A stretch of 64,000 nucleotides of DNA from Nocardioides aquaticus (lineage in GTDB: Bacteria; Actinomycetota; Actinomycetes; Propionibacteriales; Nocardioidaceae). The DNA lies in contig NZ_CP075371.1 in assembly GCF_018459925.1 (NCBI RefSeq), positions 3,472,001 to 3,536,000 on the forward strand, in the 5' to 3' direction. Positions 42,864 through 53,059 of the stretch are shown in pieces (the stretch's first letter is position 1; every line of letters begins with the position of its first letter). The notes below the pieces were generated by a model, which worked only from the letters and a program-made list of their open reading frames with translations, had not been told where the DNA came from and made no database searches. A program made the position numbers and the translations under genes.

Positions 42864-44318
42864 GTGAGCAAGGACGAGCACGACATCGCTGACCCCACCG
42901 CCCCGACCGCCGCCGAGCCCGAGGTCGGCACCGAGTCGCACGACCCGGCCGTCCCGCGGGCCTACCGCGACTTCATGCGCACCGGCTGGGGCGAGCGCGA
43001 GCTCGACCTGCCCGCCCACCCGGTCGCGCCGTACGCCGCCGCGCGTCGCCGACGCCTGGCCGAGGCGTTCCCCGGCGAGCGGCTGGTGCTGCCGGCGGGC
43101 ACCTTCAAGGTGCGCTCGAACGACACCGACTACCGGTTCCGTCCCGACACCGCGCACACGTACTTCTCCGGGAACCAGACCACCGACGCGGTCCTGGTCG
43201 TGGAGGACGGCGCCGAGGTCCTCTACGCGCGCCCGCGCTCCTCGCGCGACACCGACGAGTTCTTCCGCGACCGGCAGTACGGCGAGCTGTGGGCGGGGCG
43301 CCGGCCCTCGATCCACGAGATGTCGTCGTCCCTCGGTCTCGAGGTGCGCCACCTGGACACCCTCGAGGACGACCTGCAGCGTCGCGGCGCCGCCAAGACC
43401 CGGGTGCTGCGCGGGCTCTCGTCGGCGGTCGACCGGATCGTGGCCCCCGACGCCGGGCTCGACGACGAGCTCGGGCGGGTGGCCTCGGAGATGCGTCTGG
43501 TGAAGGACGACTGGGAGGTCGGCGAGCTGCGGGAGGCCTGCGACGTCACCGCGCTCGGGTTCGAGGACTCGGTCCGGGAGTGGGACCGCGTGCTGGAGCA
43601 CGGCGAGCGCTGGATCGAGGGCACCTTCTTCCGCCGGGCCCGGGCGATGGGCAACGACATCGGCTACGACTCGATCGTGGGCGGCGGCAAGCACGCCACG
43701 ACGCTGCACTGGATCGAGAACTCCGGGTCGATCACGCCCGGGGAGCTGGTCCTGCTCGACATGGGCGTCGAGGGCCGCAACCTCTACACCGCCGACGTGA
43801 CCCGCACCCTGCCGGTCGACGGCCGGTGGACCGCGCGCCAGCGCGAGCTGTACGACGTCGTCCTCGCCGCCCAGCAGGCCGGCATCGACGCCGTACGGCC
43901 CGGGGCGCGGTTCGCGTCGGTCCACGAGGCCTCGATGGAGGTGCTGGCGCACGCGCTGGCCGACCTGGGTCTGCTGCCGGTCAGCGCCGAGGAGGCGCTG
44001 GACCCCGAGTCCAAGGTGTACGCGCGCTGGACCCTGCACGGCACGAGCCACATGCTCGGGATGGACGTCCACGACTGCGGCCGGGCGGCACCGGAGGCGT
44101 ACGCCAAGGGTGTGCTCGCCGAGGGCATGGTGCTCACGGTCGAGCCGGGGCTGTACTTCCAGGAGGACGACCTGCTGGTGCCCGAGGAGCTGCGCGGCAC
44201 CGGGATCAGGATCGAGGACGACGTGCTGGTGACGGCCGACGGCAGCGAGAACCTGTCGGCGTCGCTGCCCCGCGGCGCCGACGAGGTCGAGGCCTGGATG
44301 GCGCGCCTGCGGGGCTGA
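42864..44318 (+). CDS. Aminopeptidase P family (M24B Xaa-Pro aminopeptidase)
   Basis: A 484-residue metallopeptidase that removes residues preceding proline. An N-terminal creatinase-like domain (RSNDTDYRFRPDTAHTYFSG) precedes the pita-bread catalytic domain. Metal ligands are in LVLLDMGVEGRNLYTADVTR (two Asp), LHGTSHMLGMDVHD (His), VLTVEPGLYF (Glu) and GIRIEDDVLV (Glu). The GTG start is preceded by TAGGCT (42852-42857) at 6 bases. Divergent from the PrsW-type gene across 63 bases that hold both -10 elements. Confidence 0.92.
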   Translation: MSKDEHDIADPTAPTAAEPEVGTESHDPAVPRAYRDFMRTGWGERELDLPAHPVAPYAAARRRRLAEAFPGERLVLPAGTFKVRSNDTDYRFRPDTAHTYFSGNQTTDAVLVVEDGAEVLYARPRSSRDTDEFFRDRQYGELWAGRRPSIHEMSSSLGLEVRHLDTLEDDLQRRGAAKTRVLRGLSSAVDRIVAPDAGLDDELGRVASEMRLVKDDWEVGELREACDVTALGFEDSVREWDRVLEHGERWIEGTFFRRARAMGNDIGYDSIVGGGKHATTLHWIENSGSITPGELVLLDMGVEGRNLYTADVTRTLPVDGRWTARQRELYDVVLAAQQAGIDAVRPGARFASVHEASMEVLAHALADLGLLPVSAEEALDPESKVYARWTLHGTSHMLGMDVHDCGRAAPEAYAKGVLAEGMVLTVEPGLYFQEDDLLVPEELRGTGIRIEDDVLVTADGSENLSASLPRGADEVEAWMARLRG

Positions 44319-44331
44319 GGCCTGCGGGGTC

Positions 44332-45354
44332 CTAGTGCTCCTCGGCCCGCTCGGGCGTGGCCGCGGCCGGCATCAGGCGGGACAGCAGGTCGGCCAGCGT
44401 CACCACGGTCGACCCGCCGTCCGCGCGGTGCACGACCGCGATCTGGGTGCCGGCGGCGCGCAGGGTGGACATCGCGTCCAGCACGGTCGTGGCGCCGTCC
44501 AGCTCGTGCAGGTCGCGCACGTAGGCCGCGACCGGCTCCTGTGCGGCGGCGGTGAGGGTGTCGCGCACGTGCACGACCCCGGACGGCTCCTCGGCCGGAC
44601 CGACCAGGATCCTCAGGTGCCCGGACTCGCGGGCCTGCTGCTGCGCGTCCCCGACGGTCGCCCCGACCGGCACGCCGACCAACCGGGAGCTGCTGGTCAG
44701 GTCGTCCAGGGTGGCCTGCGACATCTCGAGCGCGCCGGAGAGCTGCGCGGACGACCGGGCGTCCAGGTCCCCCGTCTCGACGGAGTGCTGGACCAGCTGG
44801 CGCAGGTCGTCGGGGTTCTGCTCGATGGCCACCTCGTCGACCGGCTCGACCCCGACCCGGCGGACGAGGCCGTTCGCGGCGTTGTTGAGCAGGGCCAGCA
44901 CGGGACGGAAGAGCCACATGAAGCCGCGCATCGGGATCGCGAACAACGTGGCCGACCTCTCGGGGTGGCTGATCGCCCAGGACTTCGGGGCCATCTCCCC
45001 GACGACGAGGTGCAGGAACGTGGTGACCACCAGCGCGAGGCCGAAGGCGACCGCGTAGGACAGCCACCCCGGGAGCCCGACCTGCTCGAGCAGCGGCTCG
45101 AGGGCGTGCTCGATGGCCGGTTCGGTGATGGCGCCGAGCGCCAGGGTGCAGGCGGTGATGCCCAGCTGGCAGCCGGCCAGGAGGACGGAGACCTCCGAGG
45201 CGCTGCGCAGGGCGGCGCGCGAGGCCTTGCTGTGGGTGGCGGCCTCCTCGAGCCGGGTGCGGCGCGAGGCGATGCTGGCGAACTCGACGGAGACGAAGAA
45301 GGCGCTCAGCACGATGATCGCGACGGTCGCGGGGATGGCGGCGAACCCGGTCAT
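44332..45354 (-). CDS. CNNM/hemolysin-family protein (DUF21 plus CBS pair), short form
   Basis: A 340-residue membrane protein with an N-terminal DUF21/CNNM domain of three to four helices (IIVLSAFFVSVEFASIASRR, VLLAGCQLGITACTLALGAI, VGEMAPKSWAISHPE) and a cytoplasmic CBS-domain pair. It lacks the C-terminal CorC_HlyC domain of its neighbour. Members are linked to Mg2+/Co2+ transport. Its ATG overlaps the stop of the larger paralogue (ATGA), so the two are probably subunits of one complex. Confidence 0.88.
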   Translation of the reverse strand: MTGFAAIPATVAIIVLSAFFVSVEFASIASRRTRLEEAATHSKASRAALRSASEVSVLLAGCQLGITACTLALGAITEPAIEHALEPLLEQVGLPGWLSYAVAFGLALVVTTFLHLVVGEMAPKSWAISHPERSATLFAIPMRGFMWLFRPVLALLNNAANGLVRRVGVEPVDEVAIEQNPDDLRQLVQHSVETGDLDARSSAQLSGALEMSQATLDDLTSSSRLVGVPVGATVGDAQQQARESGHLRILVGPAEEPSGVVHVRDTLTAAAQEPVAAYVRDLHELDGATTVLDAMSTLRAAGTQIAVVHRADGGSTVVTLADLLSRLMPAAATPERAEEH

Positions 45355-46814
45355 CGGCTGACCTCCTCGGTCTGGTCGGTGTGGTTCTGGTCGGTGTGGT
45401 CCTGGTCGGTGTCGTCCTCGCCCGGCAGCGGCGCGCCGACCAGCTCCAGGCGCAGGTGGGTGGGCACGTGGTGCTCGACCTCGAGGACCTCCGCACGCAG
45501 CGTGCGCTCGGGCGGGTGCTCGGAGTGGGCGAGCTCGAGCGGGTCCGGTGGCAGGTGGACCTCGACGGTGTCGCCCTCGGCCGGCAGCGCGCCGTGCTCG
45601 GCGATGACCATGCCGGCGACGGTCTCGAAGTCACCGCGCGGGAGCACCGCGCCGACCTCGCGCTCGACCTCGTCGAGGGGGGCGTCGCCGCGCACGGTCC
45701 AGGCCCGGGCGGAGGCGTCGGGCACCAGGTGCGGCTCCTCGTCGCCGTCGTGCTCGTCGGTGATCTCCCCGACGACCTCCTCGACGAGGTCCTCGAGGGT
45801 GATGATGCCGGCGAACCCGCCGTACTCGTCGACGACGCAGGCCAGCTGGTCGCCGGCCTCGGTCATCGCGGCCAGGGCGTCGGGCAGGCGCATCAGGGTC
45901 GGCAGCACGGTCGCCTCGCGGCTGACCTCGCCCACGGTCACCGTCGGGCCCTCGGGGGCGTGGTCCTCGCACGGCCGCAGCGCCTCGATGACGTCGACGA
46001 GGTGGACCACCCCGACGACCTCGCCGTGGGCGTCGAGCACGGGGTAGCGGGAGTGGCCGCCCTCCATCACCTGCAGCACCTCGCGCAGGTCGGTGCCGGC
46101 GTCGAAGACGTCGACGCGGGAGCGCGGGACGAGTGCGTGGTCGACGTCGCGCTCGGGGAAGTCGATCATCCGGTCCAGGACCAGGCTGAGCTCGGGCGGC
46201 AGCTCGCCGGCGTCCTTCGACGCGCTGACGATGCGCTGGAGGTCGTGCAGGTTGGCCGAGTGGGCGACGTCGTGGACGGGCTCGATCCGCAGCAGCCGGA
46301 GCAGGCCGTTGGAGGCCGCGTCGAAGAAGCGGATCACCCACCCGAAGGCACGCATGTAGACCAGGGTCGAGCCGGAGAGCCGCTGGGCCACGGCGTACGG
46401 CCGGGCGATCGAGAGGTTCTTGGGGAACAGCTCCCCGAAGAGCATCTGCGCGAACGTCGCCACCACCAGCGTGCCGACGGTGCCGATCGCGATGCCGGTC
46501 CCGGTCGGCACCCCGACCCCGCCCAGCAGCTCGCCGACGGCAGAGCCGATCAGCGGCTCGGCGGCGTACCCGACCATCAGGCCCGTGACGGTGATGCCGA
46601 GCTGAGCCCCGGAGAGCATGAAGGACGTGCGGTCGGTGATCTGCAGGGTCCGCTTGGCCGACCTGTCGCCCTGGGCCGCCAGCGCGTTGAGGCGCGAGCG
46701 GTCGACGGCCATGTAGGAGAACTCCTGGGCCACGAAGTAGCCGTTGGCCGCGATGATCAGGCCGATCAGGAGCACACCACCGACCAGGGACAACGCGATG
46801 CTCATGGTCGTCAT
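45351..46814 (-). CDS. CNNM/CorC-family protein (DUF21, CBS pair, CorC_HlyC domain)
   Basis: A 487-residue membrane protein. The DUF21 domain has LIGLIIAANGYFVAQEFSYM, MLSGAQLGITVTGLMVGYAA and MLFGELFPKNLSIARPYAV. The CBS pair includes VLQVMEGGHSRYPVLDAHGE and ACVVDEYGGFAGIITLEDLV, and a C-terminal CorC_HlyC module (about residues 370-450) follows, then a His/Asp-rich tail made of a repeated DHTDQN-like unit. It begins only 4 bases after the stop of the first paralogue of the unusual cluster upstream, so it may belong to that transcript. Confidence 0.88.
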   Translation of the reverse strand: MTTMSIALSLVGGVLLIGLIIAANGYFVAQEFSYMAVDRSRLNALAAQGDRSAKRTLQITDRTSFMLSGAQLGITVTGLMVGYAAEPLIGSAVGELLGGVGVPTGTGIAIGTVGTLVVATFAQMLFGELFPKNLSIARPYAVAQRLSGSTLVYMRAFGWVIRFFDAASNGLLRLLRIEPVHDVAHSANLHDLQRIVSASKDAGELPPELSLVLDRMIDFPERDVDHALVPRSRVDVFDAGTDLREVLQVMEGGHSRYPVLDAHGEVVGVVHLVDVIEALRPCEDHAPEGPTVTVGEVSREATVLPTLMRLPDALAAMTEAGDQLACVVDEYGGFAGIITLEDLVEEVVGEITDEHDGDEEPHLVPDASARAWTVRGDAPLDEVEREVGAVLPRGDFETVAGMVIAEHGALPAEGDTVEVHLPPDPLELAHSEHPPERTLRAEVLEVEHHVPTHLRLELVGAPLPGEDDTDQDHTDQNHTDQTEEVSR

Positions 46815-46818
46815 GGTG

Positions 46819-47319
46819 TCAGTGACGTGGGCGGTCCCCAGGGGTGTGCGACGCCGACCTGCGGCGGGCCCGACGCTTCTGCAGGGTGTGGGTCCAGGCC
46901 AGGGCGCCCGGCACGCCTGCCAGCAGCGTGAACACAGGGAACGCGACGAACCCGGCCTTGGTGTCGTCCGGACCGGGCACCTGGATCCCCTCGCCCGGGT
47001 CGTAGTGGACGAGAGCGTTCTCCTCCAGGCCCCCGCAGGTGCCGAACCGCCCGCCGCTGGCCTCCTGGACGGTCTCGACCGGCGGCCCGTCAGGACGGTC
47101 GGCGATGACCAGCACGCACTCCGGCGAGCTCGACACGACGTAGCCGGAGGGATCGTCCGCGGTGAGGCGCTCGTGCATGATGAAGCCGCCGGAGACGCCG
47201 ATCACGACGGCGCAGACCGGGCACAGCCACAGCAGCACGAACCTGCGCCACGCGGTGCTGTCCCAGGGCTTGCCACCCGTGCCGAACCCCTTGTCGAGCA
47301 TCGTCTCGATGGTGGGCAT
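46819..47319 (-). CDS. Two-helix membrane protein, paralogue A of an unrecognised family
   Basis: A 166-residue protein of a family I do not recognise, present four times in this region. Helix 1 is FVLLWLCPVCAVVIGVSGGF (about residues 27-46) and helix 2 is FPVFTLLAGVPGALAWTHTL (about 128-147), followed by a basic tail QKRRARRR. Charge distribution puts both ends inside and the roughly 70-residue loop outside. The loop holds the shared pattern ECVLVIADRPDGPPVETVQE and GTCGG with two cysteines, probably a disulfide. It begins 6 bases after paralogue B and ends 4 bases before the CNNM gene. Confidence 0.7.
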   Translation of the reverse strand: MPTIETMLDKGFGTGGKPWDSTAWRRFVLLWLCPVCAVVIGVSGGFIMHERLTADDPSGYVVSSSPECVLVIADRPDGPPVETVQEASGGRFGTCGGLEENALVHYDPGEGIQVPGPDDTKAGFVAFPVFTLLAGVPGALAWTHTLQKRRARRRSASHTPGDRPRH

Positions 47320-47325
47320 CCCTGG

Positions 47326-47805
47326 TCACCCGCCGTTCGCGGCAGGCCGGCGGCGGGCCCGGCGCTTCTGCACCGTGGCGGTCCAGGCGAGGGCACCCGG
47401 CACCGCGCCCAACAACGCCATGACCGGGAACACCACGAACCCCACCTCGGTGTCGTCGTCGCCGAAGACCTGGATCCCGCGGCCCGGGTCGTAGAAGACC
47501 TCCTGGTCGACGTCCAGTCCTCCGCACGTGCCCAGGCGCCCGCCACTGTTCTGCTCGACGGTCTCGACCGGGGGGCCGCCCGGCGTCGCGGCGACGACCA
47601 GCGTGCAGTCGGCGTCGTTCGACACGACGTAGCCGAGCGAGTAGTCCGCGGCCAGCCTGTCGCGGACGAGGAACGCACCGGACACACCGATGACCAGGGC
47701 GCCGATCGGGCACGCCCAGAGCAGGAGCGCCTTCCGCCACCACGTGCGGTCCCACGGCTGCCCGTTGCTGAAGCCCCGGTCGAGGAGGTCCTCGGCGGTC
47801 GCCAC
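47326..47805 (-). CDS. Two-helix membrane protein, paralogue B
   Basis: A 159-residue protein of the same family as its three neighbours. The N-terminus is LLDRGFSNGQPWDRTWWRKA, helix 1 LLLWACPIGALVIGVSGAFL, the external loop DCTLVVAATPGGPPVETVEQ and GTCGGLDVDQEVFYDPGRG, and helix 2 VMALLGAVPGALAWTATVQK with the basic end RRARRR. Conservation is strongest in the loop and in the GFSNGQPWDRT start. It lies 5 bases after the ATP-grasp ligase gene, so it is almost surely co-translated with it. Function unknown. Confidence 0.7.
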   Translation of the reverse strand: MATAEDLLDRGFSNGQPWDRTWWRKALLLWACPIGALVIGVSGAFLVRDRLAADYSLGYVVSNDADCTLVVAATPGGPPVETVEQNSGGRLGTCGGLDVDQEVFYDPGRGIQVFGDDDTEVGFVVFPVMALLGAVPGALAWTATVQKRRARRRPAANGG

Positions 47806-47810
47806 GACAG

Positions 47811-49091
47811 TCAGGAGGCCGGCAGGGTCGGCACGTCGGCACCGACGCGGTCGGCCAGCCAGGCCCGGACCTGGGCCGGGTCGGGGCTGACGGTGTCGCT
47901 GATGACGTGCGGGACCACCCGGCTGTAGTAGTCGGTGACGAGGCCGTCGGACTCGCGCACGAGCATGCCGGCGGCCTCACCGCCGACGACCCAGGACCCG
48001 ATGACGACGCGGTTGCCCTCGTAGCTCGGCAGCTCGGCGTACCCCTGGTAGACGAAGCCCTCGGCGCCGTACGCACCCGGCATCTGCACGTCCTCGCTGC
48101 CGTCCGCGAGGTGGACGCGGACGTTGTCGCCCTCCCGGCCGTGGAGCGGCTTGGCCACCCACTGCAGCAGGTCGCGCGGCTCGTCGAAGTACGCCGGCAG
48201 GAGGTGCCGGTGGCCCGGGTTCCGCTCCCACAGCACCGGGAGGATCGCCTTGGTCGACAGCAGGGCCTTCCAGGCCGGCTCGAACCAGGTGACCGGCCTG
48301 GCCTCGCGACCCTCCAGGATCATCTGCCCGAACCTCTCCCCCAGCATGTCCTCCCACGGGTACAGCTTGAAGACGTTGCGCAGGGGGAGGTCGTGGGCGT
48401 CGCGGAACTCGCGGTGGTCGGGGTTCCAGCCGACCTCGGACACGGGGTGCGCCATCACCGTCAGACCGGCCTGGATGGCGGTGTCCATCATGTAGTGGAT
48501 GGTCATCTCGAGCTCGCCGTCGTCGTACTCCGCGCCGCCGCCGAGGTGGTAGACGAAGTGGACGTGGTCGCCCTCGATGGCCCCGGAGGTCCGCAGCTCG
48601 GCCCACCGGGCGACCAGCCGGTCGTGCACGGAGTTCCACTGGTCGGCGTCGGGGAGGACGTCCTCGAGCCAGCGCCACTGGGCGACCGCGGTCTCGACGA
48701 GCCCGGTGGGGGTGTCACCGTTGATCTCGAGCATCTTGAGGGAGCCGTCGGCGCCGTAGACGAGGTCGAAACGGGCGTAGACGGACTTGTGCCCGGCCTC
48801 GACCGACCGGCGGACCAGGTCCAGGCTGCCGGCCGGCAGGCCGAGCCGGGCGTCGGTCATCCCGGACCCGGGCGAGACCATGTGGGCGACGGCATCGATG
48901 CACAACGCCCACAGCTCCTCCGTGGCCGACTCCAGGCGCTCGACCTCGTCCATGGTGACCTCGTACCAGGCCGACTCGTTCCAGTAGGGCACGGTGGTGC
49001 CGTCGTCCTTCGTGGTGACGGGGAAGATCAGGCCCTGCTCGGTGACGATCCGTTCCCAGTCCTTGCGGGGCCGGATCCGGTGGCGCCACAT
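47811..49091 (-). CDS. Glutathionylspermidine synthase-like ATP-grasp ligase (YgiC/YjfC type)
   Basis: A 426-residue cytoplasmic ATP-grasp enzyme without the amidase domain of bifunctional Gss. Family motifs are FDLVYGADGSLKMLEINGDT followed by PTGL, FEPAWKALLSTKAILPVLWE, YFDEPRDLLQWVAKPLHGRE followed by GDNV, and GYAELPSYEGNRVVIGSWVV. Such enzymes activate a carboxylate with ATP and form an amide. True glutathionylspermidine synthesis is unlikely in a mycothiol-type actinobacterium, so the substrate is probably another peptide or protein. The ATG overlaps the DUF350 stop (ATGA). Gene partners are DUF350 and a lipoprotein, as in the E. coli ygi/yjf loci. Confidence 0.85.
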   Translation of the reverse strand: MWRHRIRPRKDWERIVTEQGLIFPVTTKDDGTTVPYWNESAWYEVTMDEVERLESATEELWALCIDAVAHMVSPGSGMTDARLGLPAGSLDLVRRSVEAGHKSVYARFDLVYGADGSLKMLEINGDTPTGLVETAVAQWRWLEDVLPDADQWNSVHDRLVARWAELRTSGAIEGDHVHFVYHLGGGAEYDDGELEMTIHYMMDTAIQAGLTVMAHPVSEVGWNPDHREFRDAHDLPLRNVFKLYPWEDMLGERFGQMILEGREARPVTWFEPAWKALLSTKAILPVLWERNPGHRHLLPAYFDEPRDLLQWVAKPLHGREGDNVRVHLADGSEDVQMPGAYGAEGFVYQGYAELPSYEGNRVVIGSWVVGGEAAGMLVRESDGLVTDYYSRVVPHVISDTVSPDPAQVRAWLADRVGADVPTLPAS

Positions 49092-49555
49092 CAGGCGATG
49101 CTCGCGCTCACGATGGCCGCCACCGAGACCGCCGTCGCCGCGGCGACGTAGGCGAGGGGCCGGACCGGGCCCGGCTCGCACACGATCTTGCGCAGGTTGC
49201 CCGGGGTGATCGCCTCGATGGCGAAGAACATCACCGTGTTCAGCAGGATGCCGAGCGCACCGAACGACACGGTCCAGAGCAGCGCCCACCCGAGGTCCGT
49301 CTCCCCGTTGGTCCAGATGGCGGTGAAGAGGACCAGCGCGTTCGAGACCAGCCAGGCCGAGGTGACCAGGCCCGCGGAGCGGGACTGGGCGTGCACGGAC
49401 TCGGTGCCGGTCTCGTCGACGCCGCGCAGGTGCGAACCCAGGTGGCCGGGGGTGACCAGGTCGAGCACGTAGTAGGACACCACGAGCATCGCGCCGGCGA
49501 TAACGGCGTACACGACGGCGTGGTAGAGCGCGACGAAGAGGTCGAGGAAGGTCAT
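49091..49555 (-). CDS. DUF350 membrane protein (YjfL type)
   Basis: A 154-residue membrane protein with four helices: AVVYAVIAGAMLVVSYYVLD, VTSAWLVSNALVLFTAIWTN, ALLWTVSFGALGILLNTVMF and PLAYVAAATAVSVAAIVSAS. The second-half sequence LNTVMFFAIEAITPGNLRK and the first-half LDLVTPGHLGSHL are repeat-like, as in DUF350, which is built from two similar two-helix units. Known members sit beside YgiC/YjfC-type ligases. Its stop overlaps the ligase start, so membrane protein and ligase are made together. Transport or anchoring of the ligase substrate is possible but not shown. Confidence 0.82.
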   Translation of the reverse strand: MTFLDLFVALYHAVVYAVIAGAMLVVSYYVLDLVTPGHLGSHLRGVDETGTESVHAQSRSAGLVTSAWLVSNALVLFTAIWTNGETDLGWALLWTVSFGALGILLNTVMFFAIEAITPGNLRKIVCEPGPVRPLAYVAAATAVSVAAIVSASIA

Positions 49556-49586
49556 CTTGGTTCGGTCCTTTGTCGGTGCGGGCTGG

Positions 49587-49979
49587 TCAGGAGGAGATGC
49601 CGCGACTGATGCCGCCGAACCCGCCCTTGGTCGTCGATGACTTCACGGTGCTGCCGCCCGTAGTGGGCAGCCCGCCGCGCTGGACGGTCCCGGACAGCGA
49701 GGACCCGTTGAACGTGCCTCCCGAGACCCCGGAGCCGAGCGCGGGCACCGTCCGGCTCGCCGCCAGGTAGTACCAGAAGAAGCCGGACCCGGTGCCGTTG
49801 TAGTCGTCCTGCTCGTCGTCGCAGGAGTCGTCGTCGACGCGCTCCTCGGTCTCGGGGTCGACGCAGACCGCGGCGTAGTCGGCGGAGGACGAGCAGCCGG
49901 TCAGGCCGCTGGCCATCACGGCGGTCACGCCGATCGCGACGGTGGTCGATCGCATCCTGCGACGGGTGGGGGTGTCCAT
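49587..49979 (-). CDS. Small lipoprotein with C-terminal KGGFG motif (YgiB/DUF1190-like)
   Basis: A 130-residue lipoprotein. The signal is TTVAIGVTAVMASGLTGCSS with the lipobox cysteine at about residue 29. The mature part has CVDPETEERVDDDSCDDEQ, then GSGFFWYYLAASRT, and a Ser/Thr/Gly-rich end STVKSSTTKGGFGGISRGIS. From memory, E. coli YgiB (DUF1190), partner of YgiC, has the same order: lipobox, acidic Cys-containing part, an FW segment and a C-terminal RGGFG. I therefore regard it as a divergent member. The ATG has AGAGGA 6 bases upstream. It may be the ligase substrate. Confidence 0.72.
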   Translation of the reverse strand: MDTPTRRRMRSTTVAIGVTAVMASGLTGCSSSADYAAVCVDPETEERVDDDSCDDEQDDYNGTGSGFFWYYLAASRTVPALGSGVSGGTFNGSSLSGTVQRGGLPTTGGSTVKSSTTKGGFGGISRGISS

Positions 49980-50013
49980 GGTCGTCCTCTGTCGGTCCTC
50001 GGTGGTGCCGTGG

Positions 50014-50019
50014 ACGCTA
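50014..50019 (-). promoter_or_regulatory. Possible -10 of the lipoprotein-DUF350-ligase unit
   Basis: TAGCGT on the minus strand lies 34 bases before the lipoprotein ATG, in the only gap (99 bases) within the cluster large enough for a promoter. This would give a leader of about 28 bases that includes the AGAGGA Shine-Dalgarno. A weak call based on one hexamer. Confidence 0.3.
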
Positions 50020-50078
50020 CTGCCCCGCCCGGGTCCCGACGGGCACGACGTCCCGCGGGTCGGCCCGGTCGCCTGTCG

Positions 50079-50549
50079 TCAGGCGGCTGATCGCCCGCGC
50101 GCGCGCCGCTTCTGCAGCGTGTGCGTCCACGCGAGGGCCCCGGGCACCGCGACGAGCAGGACCACGACGGGCAGGACGACCATCCCGACCACGTTGTTGT
50201 CGGGGCCGAACGCCTGGACCCCGCGCCCGAGGTCGTAGTAGACCTCCTGGTTCTCGTCCAGCCCGCCGCACGTCCCCAGGCGACCACCGCTGCTCTGCTG
50301 GACGGTGGCGACCGGTGGTCCGTCGGGGCGCTCGGCGACGACGAGCGTGCAGTCCTCCGAGCTCGACACGACATAGCCCACGGGGTAGTCCGCCGTGACG
50401 TCGTCGTAGATGATCGCGGCACCTGCCACGGCGATGACCAGTGCGGCCAGGGGCAGGACCAGCAGCATCACCGCCTTGCGCAGCGGCGTCCGGTCCCAGG
50501 GCTGCCCGTTGCTGAAGCCCCGGTTCATGATCGTCTCGACCGTCGGCAC
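50079..50549 (-). CDS. Two-helix membrane protein, paralogue C
   Basis: A 156-residue member of the four-copy family. The N-terminus PTVETIMNRGFSNGQPWDRT is shared with the other copies. Helix 1 is AVMLLVLPLAALVIAVAGAA, the external loop DCTLVVAERPDGPPVATVQQ and GTCGGLDENQEVYYDLGRG, helix 2 VVVLLVAVPGALAWTHTLQK, and the tail RRARGRS. I chose the GTG at 50549, 2 bases after the stop of copy D, to match the N-termini of the family. Function unknown. Confidence 0.7.
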   Translation of the reverse strand: MPTVETIMNRGFSNGQPWDRTPLRKAVMLLVLPLAALVIAVAGAAIIYDDVTADYPVGYVVSSSEDCTLVVAERPDGPPVATVQQSSGGRLGTCGGLDENQEVYYDLGRGVQAFGPDNNVVGMVVLPVVVLLVAVPGALAWTHTLQKRRARGRSAA

Positions 50550-50551
50550 CG

Positions 50552-51031
50552 TCAGCCGCCCGCCCCGCCCGGCCGCCGCCGGGCCTCGCGCTTCTGCAAC
50601 GTGGCGGTCCACGCCAGGGCGCCCGGGACACCGGCCAGCGCTGCGGCGACGAGGGACGCGACGATACCGACGACGTTGCTCTCGGTACCGAAGGTCTGCT
50701 GCCCTGTGCCGGGGTCGTAGTAGACCGCCTGGTTCTCGTCCAGGCCGCCGCACGAGCCGAGCCTGCCCCCACTGTTCTGCCGCACGGTCTCCACCGGGGG
50801 TCCGTCCGGGCGCTCGGCGAGGACGAGGGTGCAGTCGCTGTCGTTGGATACGACGTAGCCCACCGGGTAGTCGGCCACGGCCTCGCCACGGTAGTAGGTG
50901 TAACCGGCCACGGCGATGACGACCGCACAGACCGGGAGCAACCAGAGCATCATGGCCCTCCGGACCGCCGTGCGGTCCCAGGGTTGGCCGTTGCTGAAAC
51001 CCTTGTTCAGGATCGTCTCGACCGTCGGCAC
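50552..51031 (-). CDS. Two-helix membrane protein, paralogue D
   Basis: A 159-residue member of the four-copy family and the first gene of the cluster. It has PTVETILNKGFSNGQPWDRT, helix 1 AMMLWLLPVCAVVIAVAGYT, loop DCTLVLAERPDGPPVETVRQ and GSCGGLDENQAVYYDPGTG, helix 2 ASLVAAALAGVPGALAWTAT, and the basic end KREARRRP. The GTG at 51031 gives the family N-terminus and has GGGG 13 bases upstream. C and D are closest to each other in the loop, suggesting tandem duplication. Confidence 0.7.
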   Translation of the reverse strand: MPTVETILNKGFSNGQPWDRTAVRRAMMLWLLPVCAVVIAVAGYTYYRGEAVADYPVGYVVSNDSDCTLVLAERPDGPPVETVRQNSGGRLGSCGGLDENQAVYYDPGTGQQTFGTESNVVGIVASLVAAALAGVPGALAWTATLQKREARRRPGGAGG

Positions 51032-51514: not shown

Positions 51515-52933
51515 TCAGTGCCGGAACGCGCGCCCCGCGTCCTCGCCCGTGCCGTCGCAGCGGCCCACGGCCCGGCCGAGCTCCATCAGGAACATCTGCG
51601 CCAGGTCGCGGCTGAAGGCGTTGCGGACCACGATCCGGATGATCTCCAGGTTCTCCCGGTCGGCGCAGAAGTTGTACGCCGGGACGGCCCAGCCGCCCTG
51701 CTTCATCCAGTCGGCGACGTCGTTCAGCGTGTACTGCACGTTCGCGGCGTAGCTGTCCTTCTTCGGCTTCCCGGACGTGGTGTTGGCGCCCTTGAAGCAG
51801 AACGCGACCACCGGCAGGTCGCTGCCGTCGGCGATCACCTCGAACTCGTCCATGCCGTCGATGGCCGCGGCCATCATCTGGGCGATGTCGCGGCTGTGCT
51901 GGTGGACCCGCTTGAAGCCCTCGTAGCCCAGGCGCACGAACTGGTAGTACTGCGCGACGACGCCGGAGCCGGGCTTGGTGAAGTTCAGCGACATCGTGGG
52001 GTGGTCGCCGCCGAGGTAGTCGACGCGGAACACCAGGCCCTCGGGCCGGGCCTCCTCGTTGCGCCACAGCACCCAGCCGACGCCGGGGTAGACCAGTCCG
52101 TACTTGTGGCCGGAGGCGTTGATCGACTGCACGCGCTCGATGCGGAAGTCCCACACCAGCTCGGGGTCGACGAAGGGGGCGAAGAGCCCGCCGGACGCGG
52201 CGTCGACGTGGATCGGGACGTACGTTCCGGTCTCGATCTCGAGCTTGTCGAGCGCCTTGGCCATCCCGGCGATGTCCTCGTAGGCACCGTCGAAGGTGGA
52301 ACCGAGGATGCCGATGACGCCGATCGTGTCCTCGTCGCACGCAGCGGCGACGTCCTCGGGGTGCAGGGTGGTCTCGCCCGGGCGGATCGGCACCTCGACC
52401 GGCTCGACCTCCCAGTAGCGGCAGAACTTGTGCCAGCAGACCTGCACGTTCGCGCCGACGATCAGCTTCGGGTTGGCGGTGGACTTCCCGGCCTTCTCCT
52501 GGCGCTCCTTCCAGCGCCACTTCAGCGCCATGCCCGCGAGCATGCAGCCCTCGGAGGAGCCGATGGTCGAGCAGCCGATGGGGTTGTCGGGCTCGGGGGC
52601 GTTCCAGAAGTCGGCGATGATGTCGAGGCAGCGGTCCTCGAGCTGCGCGGTCTGCGGGTACTCGTCGCGGTCGACCAGGTTCTTGTCCGCGGCCTCGGCC
52701 ATCAGCTTCTCGGCCTGCGGCTCCATCCAGGTCGTGCCGAACGTCGCCACGTTGAGGCGGGCGTGGCCGTCGAGCATCAGCTCGTCCGCGATCACGTGGT
52801 AGGCCGTCTCGGGGTCGACCGAGCTCTCCGCCATCCGTCGGCGCGGGATGTCGACGACCGCGCCGTCCCGGCTGAACTGGGGTCGGACGTCCAGGCCGTC
52901 CTGCAGGCTCTGGGCGGACGAGTACTTCGGCAT
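51515..52933 (-). CDS. gadB: Glutamate decarboxylase (PLP-dependent)
   Basis: A 472-residue PLP enzyme converting glutamate plus a proton to GABA and CO2. Family motifs are NPIGCSTIGSSEGCMLAGMA, PIHVDAASGGLFAPFVDPEL and the PLP lysine in SINASGHKYGLVYPGVGWVL. The N-terminus (PRRRMAESSVDPETAYHVIA) is the GadA/B type. The ATG at 52933 has GGAGG 8 bases upstream. No antiporter gadC lies next to it, so a role in acid resistance or GABA metabolism is open. Ends at a strong palindrome shared with tRNA-Arg. Confidence 0.93.
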   Translation of the reverse strand: MPKYSSAQSLQDGLDVRPQFSRDGAVVDIPRRRMAESSVDPETAYHVIADELMLDGHARLNVATFGTTWMEPQAEKLMAEAADKNLVDRDEYPQTAQLEDRCLDIIADFWNAPEPDNPIGCSTIGSSEGCMLAGMALKWRWKERQEKAGKSTANPKLIVGANVQVCWHKFCRYWEVEPVEVPIRPGETTLHPEDVAAACDEDTIGVIGILGSTFDGAYEDIAGMAKALDKLEIETGTYVPIHVDAASGGLFAPFVDPELVWDFRIERVQSINASGHKYGLVYPGVGWVLWRNEEARPEGLVFRVDYLGGDHPTMSLNFTKPGSGVVAQYYQFVRLGYEGFKRVHQHSRDIAQMMAAAIDGMDEFEVIADGSDLPVVAFCFKGANTTSGKPKKDSYAANVQYTLNDVADWMKQGGWAVPAYNFCADRENLEIIRIVVRNAFSRDLAQMFLMELGRAVGRCDGTGEDAGRAFRH

Positions 52934-53059
52934 GGGCGGGCCTCCGAGATGGCGCGACGGCCCTCGCGAGCCGGCCGGTGATCGACCGACCGCCCATAGA
53001 TACCGGAGTTGCCGACCGCCGTCCACCGCCCCCTGGACCCCCCTCCACCCCCGAACTTG

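Follow-up and report, generated by a model that had tools for sequence, protein, structure and literature searches.

The 64,000-nucleotide stretch of the Nocardioides aquaticus genome analysed here (the window; contig NZ_CP075371.1, positions 3,472,001 to 3,536,000) harbours a run of seven genes on its minus strand, arranged in the order A1, A2, lipoprotein, DUF350, ligase, B1 and B2 (Table 1). Its core is predicted to encode a membrane lipoprotein, a DUF350 membrane protein and an ATP-grasp ligase of the GSP_synth family, and this core is flanked on both sides by genes of four paralogous orphan membrane proteins. The number, the common direction and the order of the seven genes were confirmed as given in a preliminary description of this DNA, and so were the intergenic gaps of 2 (A1-A2), 99 (A2-lipoprotein), 31 (lipoprotein-DUF350), 5 (ligase-B1) and 6 bases (B1-B2). 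The genes encoding the DUF350 protein and the ligase, however, overlap by one base in the sequence TGATG and not by the four bases of an ATGA proposed there. The tight run extends past B2 into two genes predicted to encode CNNM proteins, the first of which starts at position 46814.

Table 1. Predicted genes of the run, listed in the direction of the minus strand; positions are those of the window (TM, transmembrane segment).
Feature	Position	Strand	Remarks
A1, orphan membrane protein	50552..51031	-	GTG start; TM-barrel-TM predicted via homology to A2; without copy in Nocardioides sp. AX2bis
A2, orphan membrane protein	50079..50549	-	GTG start; TM-barrel-TM predicted (model); orthologue in AX2bis
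Membrane lipoprotein	49587..49979	-	LTGC lipobox (by eye), two invariant Cys, KGGFG-GISRGISS tail
DUF350 membrane protein, YjfL-like	49091..49555	-	Pfam PF03994, 55.2 bits (cut-off 26)
ATP-grasp acid-amine ligase, GSP_synth family, YgiC/YjfC-like	47811..49091	-	Pfam PF03738, 419.2 bits; no amidase domain matched
B1, orphan membrane protein	47326..47805	-	GTG start
B2, orphan membrane protein	46819..47319	-	
CNNM/CBS/CorC_HlyC protein	45351..46814	-	4 bases past B2; outside the core; may share the transcript
Second CNNM protein	44332..45354	-	4-base overlap with the first CNNM gene; outside the core; may share the transcript

The ligase, which is encoded by the single GSP_synth gene of the genome, matches the Pfam family far above the cut-off of 29.3 bits and over the full length of the domain (positions 1-371 of 371). 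No CHAP amidase domain was detected in it, GSP_synth being the sole Pfam match at E<=1 across its 426 amino acids. The closest solved structures in the PDB are those of Escherichia coli YgiC (E 5.6e-71) followed by YjfC (E 1.8e-59), which are represented by the entries 7uk6, 7uk7, 7uk8 and 7uka; both E. coli proteins carry the RefSeq product name peptide--spermidine ligase, and many among the 120 ligase relatives listed bear the name glutathionylspermidine synthase. Fifty-seven positions that are kept in at least 97% of 35 actinobacterial ligases are identical in both YgiC and YjfC, among them R107, D109, E122, N124, K281, K314 and R379, and the catalytic residues among the 57 are presumably those known from work on glutathionylspermidine synthetase. 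The earlier assignment of the core to the set formed by YgiC/YjfC, DUF350 and a lipoprotein is correct.

In an even sample of the family Nocardioidaceae the ligase is present in 19 of 149 genomes, and the lipoprotein profile detects the same 19 genomes plus one marginal match (E 1.2e-5); in the phylum sample the ligase was found in 26 of 396 genomes, 25 of them over the cut-off. The gene neighbourhood was compared in 36 loci, comprising the window, Nocardioides sp. AX2bis, all 18 other family matches and 16 of the 23 new phylum matches over the cut-off, while seven phylum loci of the genus g28 and one match below the cut-off (G587) were left out. Genes in these neighbourhoods were predicted with a simple in-house caller, which set some starts wrongly, DUF350 counts derive from phmmer clustering of these gene calls, and the lipoprotein was detected by a script in 32 of the 36 loci and by reading in the remaining four. 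A gene for a lipoprotein of the GGFG type adjoins the ligase gene in all 36 loci. DUF350 was found in 28 of them, with one locus (L097) ending inside the ligase gene and therefore unable to show it. Since DUF350 is not universal and the lipoprotein is adjacent throughout, lipoprotein and ligase constitute the minimal pair.

The window lipoprotein itself has no match over the cut-off in Pfam or NCBIfam. In an alignment of 25 members its two cysteines and the GG of the GGFG motif are invariant. The lipobox cysteine is absent in several members (e.g. those at L032, L033, L082 and L085), and thus anchoring outside the membrane rather than lipidation seems, on the basis of the alignment, to be the constant feature of the family. 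Near the C-terminus the motif GG[FLI][GF] occurs in 36 of the 36 loci, preceded by K, R, S, Q or T. The distance from the motif to the end of the protein amounts to 7-10 residues in 34 loci (7 or 8 residues in 29 of the 36) and to 14 and 27 residues in the remaining two, and the protein always ends in either Gly (22 loci) or Ser (14 loci). The E. coli DUF1190 lipoproteins YgiB and YjfM carry TRGGFG and SRGGYG, respectively, and both proteins end in GG. In the model of the window lipoprotein the predicted local distance difference test score (pLDDT) falls below 50 at residues 119-130, which cover the GGFG motif and the tail.

A flexible tail whose motif hardly varies in its spacing to the free C-terminus would suit the role of acid substrate for a peptide-amine ligase. 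To our knowledge, no physiological peptide has been settled for YgiC and YjfC, for which activity has been reported in vitro. The tail with its near-constant spacing and its Gly/Ser end in all 36 loci offers a concrete candidate. An amide ligation at the cell envelope, as it had been suggested in the preliminary description, is plausible and gains support from the regularity of the tail. In the literature searched (titles, starts of abstracts and passages, with subscription journals mostly outside this scope) no description of the tail rule or of the orphan family was found; new here are the near-constant tail rule and the absence of AdoMet decarboxylase from the 19 ligase genomes.

The latter observation bears on the amine. 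The aminopropyl route to spermidine cannot run without S-adenosylmethionine (AdoMet) decarboxylase, which was detected in none of the 19 ligase genomes and in only one of the 149 genomes of the family sample, a genus genome lacking a GSP_synth ligase (G044, with L103 and L104). The alternative decarboxylase gene nspC was not detected in any of 20 genomes (the 19 ligase genomes and AX2bis), and the genome of the window showed no match for AdoMet_dc, Spermine_synth or nspC. Spermine_synth matches of more than 100 bits (115-123) were obtained in two family genomes, both without the ligase and one of them G044. Because the ligase genomes lack AdoMet decarboxylase, spermidine synthesised by these hosts cannot be the basis for the designation peptide-spermidine ligase, which matters for annotation as the family cannot be tied to spermidine of the host's own making. 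Judging from the gene content, host-made spermidine is probably not the amine. The hosts either import spermidine, or make it by an unrecognised route, or use another amine.

The position upstream of the lipoprotein gene is occupied by varying membrane proteins. A K+ channel gene was identified there in 11 of the 18 other Nocardioidaceae loci and overlaps the lipoprotein gene by four bases in eight of them; the five channel genes found to pass the Ion_trans_2 cut-off upon scanning comprise four of these 11 and that of L094 from the phylum set. An APC permease is encoded in the same slot in three of the 18 loci, one of which (L036) has both genes with the permease placed between channel and lipoprotein, so that 13 of the 18 sister operons carry a K+ channel and/or an APC permease upstream of the lipoprotein. 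In L085, which belongs to another family, an APC permease gene directly follows the ligase gene. In two loci the permease gene and the lipoprotein gene overlap, and in a third locus the overlap is with the ligase gene. Three loci of the genus g19 have a pair of response regulator and kinase-like genes (named by eye) in the slot. The operon in the window contains neither K+ channel nor permease, and the orphan paralogues flank the core instead, two of the four being located downstream of the ligase.

According to the protein sequence comparison the core is an actinobacterial version of the module formed in E. coli by YgiB-YgiC and by YjfL-YjfM-YjfC. It shares with ygiB-ygiC and yjfL-yjfM-yjfC a GSP_synth ligase without a matched amidase, a lipoprotein with GG[FY]G near its C-terminus and the close packing of the genes, and with the yjf locus also DUF350, there YjfL, as a neighbour. 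In contrast to the E. coli sets, the window lipoprotein is not recognised as DUF1190, the actinobacterial tail is shorter and of near-fixed length, the host lacks the three polyamine matches mentioned above and four orphan membrane proteins are added. Homologues of YjfI, YjfJ and YjfK were not found by tblastn (E<=1e-3) in the 36 loci, which is a weak test since the DUF350 genes of these loci likewise escape the YjfL query. With glutathionylspermidine synthetase and trypanothione synthetase the window ligase shares the Pfam family and alignable motifs; unlike these enzymes, it has no matched amidase domain, and its alignment with the bifunctional E. coli enzyme (phmmer) is confined to residues 265-397 of 426. 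The actinobacterial hosts would use mycothiol.

The statement of the preliminary description that no substrate is established for YgiC and YjfC no longer holds, as a peptide-spermidine ligase activity has been reported for both E. coli proteins (PMC12568646). The wider neighbourhood including its K+ channel variant is likewise already in print: according to PMC11237479, PspA-linked operons of a "third group" combine an ATP-grasp ligase, DUF350, DUF1190, a K+ channel and DUF2491, with variants containing AdoMet decarboxylase. The presence of ligase, DUF350 and lipoprotein and of a K+ channel in the 11 sister loci resembles these operons, whereas the window host has no detectable AdoMet decarboxylase and the window operon no K+ channel; the passages of PMC11237479 considered mention neither a variant carrying an amino-acid permease nor one carrying the orphan family. 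For the PspA with a CesT/Tir-like partner of such operons, the weak tblastn comparison with YjfI, YjfJ and YjfK gave no match in the 36 loci.

Based on the protein sequence analysis no family could be assigned to A1, A2, B1 and B2, none of which gave a match over the cut-off in Pfam or NCBIfam. The paralogues are 59-67% identical to A1. A comparison of A2, B1 and B2 with their copies in AX2bis indicated purifying selection (omega 0.10-0.14 by YN00 and 0.22-0.54 by NG86, the values of the two methods differing several-fold in these GC-rich genes and YN00 excluding the ligase and one CNNM gene). Because of this selection and of the 18 protein clusters that the orphan family comprises in the protein search, the paralogues are regarded as real genes; the search scored only candidates sharing most words, so that very distant relatives may be missed. 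Their predicted fold is TM-barrel-TM, and the family conserves an N-terminal GFSNGxPWD segment and a pair of cysteines. An architecture of a transmembrane segment, a small beta barrel with a YDP motif and a second transmembrane segment may be shared with DUF3592 (hhalign probability 36.7% versus 0.4% and 0.05% for the controls), from which the orphan family differs by its own GFSNGxPWD segment and cysteine pair; no Pfam match to DUF3592 at E<=1 was obtained for 16 members of the orphan family or for the four window paralogues.

Within the genus the orphan family was detected in 2 of 215 genomes, that of the window and AX2bis, both of which have the core (the contig scan of the genus genomes may omit the window's own genome). 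The genome of the window contains four copies, all at the locus, with a fifth listed match at E 0.34, and copies away from the core were found in neither genome. The family also has metagenomic members, among them P0127, P0132 and P0133. The description of the flanking four as an unrecognised, lineage-specific family thus held, and the paralogues are a lineage-specific addition to the core in a small Nocardioides branch.

We tentatively propose, as a reading that stays somewhat short of probable, that the ligase amidates the tail of the lipoprotein before export, using an amine that is non-endogenous or not spermidine. The cytoplasmic ATP-grasp ligase would activate the C-terminal carboxylate of a peptide with ATP and join it to the amine, the likeliest peptide being the flexible Gly/Ser tail of near-fixed length in the partner protein. 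The tail would be modified in the cytoplasm ahead of the translocation of the C-terminus, and the finished protein would be anchored outside the membrane alongside DUF350 and a swappable membrane partner. In the small Nocardioides branch copies of the predicted TM-barrel-TM protein flank the core, and the usual channel or permease gene is missing from the operon. The further-reaching scheme, in which the GGFG tail is an encoded C-terminal tag amidated before export with a non-spermidine amine, K+ channel and permease are interchangeable partners, and in one Nocardioides branch the four TM-barrel-TM proteins act on the tagged lipoprotein or are gated by it, appears quite improbable as a whole.

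Several observations weigh against tail amidation and its extension to the paralogues. Since inspection by eye reveals no export signal in the ligase and the tail ends up outside, the two would meet only if the modification preceded translocation. The 36 loci are not independent, related species being counted several times, and the eight tail residues preceding the last one consist of G and S to 67%, which renders an end composed exclusively of Gly or Ser notable but not overwhelming. The tails of E. coli are longer, with 23 (YgiB) and 11 (YjfM) residues after the motif. Pfam does not join the lipoprotein to DUF1190, no match at E<=1 being obtained for the window protein and 1 of the 25 members reaching E 0.038, and hhalign aligned 15 columns restricted to the tail (probability 4.7%). 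Concerning the amine, Spermine_synth matches of 30-40 bits, above the curated cut-off of 22.9 but far short of the 115-123 bits of the two strong matches, occur in 12 of the 19 ligase genomes, and spermidine could be imported. Finally, the only link apparent between paralogues and ligase is their position in one lineage.

Alternatively, the ligase may act in the cytoplasm to form a soluble conjugate of a small peptide with an amine, like glutathionylspermidine synthetase, with lipoprotein, DUF350 and channel or permease sensing, exporting or responding to it and with an unmodified tail that binds the membrane partner, which we consider possible if rather doubtful. The ligase is cytoplasmic and the tail lies outside, recurrent K+ channel or amino-acid permease neighbours would suit a small solute, and a small thiol peptide is the substrate of relatives that share the Pfam family of the ligase. 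A simple binding motif, however, would hardly need what is observed in the partner, whose most constant part is the GGFG tail at its near-fixed distance from the free C-terminus. A different question is whether the amine is spermidine taken up from the surroundings, with the enzyme working in the manner of YgiC/YjfC to store or buffer polyamine that has been scavenged. The match of the conserved ligase positions to the E. coli enzymes and the overlap of the APC permease gene with the lipoprotein or ligase gene point in this direction, the APC superfamily including polyamine carriers; but with AdoMet decarboxylase lacking in the 19 genomes a constitutive requirement for spermidine becomes less likely, and the permease, which is present in just three of the 18 sister loci, is missing from the window operon, so that we regard this explanation as unlikely.

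The paralogues may be functionally unrelated to the ligase: an orphan family that was duplicated and came by chance to lie around the core in a single branch, perhaps sharing a transcript with it, as the CNNM genes also may; this comes near to an even chance without attaining it. In the family sample 18 of the 19 genomes with a ligase lack them, and the two genomes that have them share 93% DNA identity at the locus, so that their association with the core amounts to about one independent observation. Their amino acid identity between the window and AX2bis (91-94%) is lower than that of the core (98.6-99.4%) and about equal to that of the CNNM genes (91-94%), and one copy, A1, is absent in AX2bis. 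On the other hand, both sides of the core are occupied, the order is kept in the two genomes, three of the copies are under purifying selection and no copy was found elsewhere in either genome. The role as dedicated partners assigned to the four proteins in the preliminary description is possible for this branch but not general to the system. An occurrence mostly without the core, named there as speaking against such a role, was not observed among the genus genomes scanned, although this again reflects about one independent case. A chance association of the paralogues is compatible with tail amidation as well as with a small conjugate, and the likelihoods given for these explanations need not add up to certainty.

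In AX2bis (L050:8585-9970) a gene for an HNH endonuclease lies directly against A2, in the place taken in the window by A1 and the sequence upstream of it; this junction is a breakpoint of recombination or insertion at the paralogue array itself. Synonymous divergence (NG86) between window positions 44332-50549 and L050 ranges from 0.04 to 0.12 for core and paralogues and from 0.19 to 0.31 for the two CNNM genes; array and core may share a more recent history than the CNNM flank. One member of the orphan family (P0138, 262 amino acids) is fused or rearranged, its N-terminal segment seemingly lacking the barrel and being followed by a second helix-barrel-helix unit (by eye); it shows a weak match to Rv2743c (E 0.0069), below the cut-off.

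Furthermore, a glutathione-peroxidase-like gene (by eye; family F11) is convergent with the ligase gene in four Nocardioides loci (L037, L042, L044 and L045). A class III aminotransferase gene (family F15) is found repeatedly close to the ligase in two groups that are distant from one another, downstream of DUF350 in L093 and L095 and on the opposite strand in L087 and L088, with a Pfam match to Aminotran_3 for L095. In the window the CNNM end of the run is convergent with a gene for an aminopeptidase P-type M24 metallopeptidase (42864-44318, plus strand). Upstream of the run a gene predicted by Pfam (Pyridoxal_deC) to encode a pyridoxal phosphate (PLP)-dependent decarboxylase is located at 51515-53026 on the minus strand, and a tRNA-Arg gene on the plus strand lies between the decarboxylase gene and the run.

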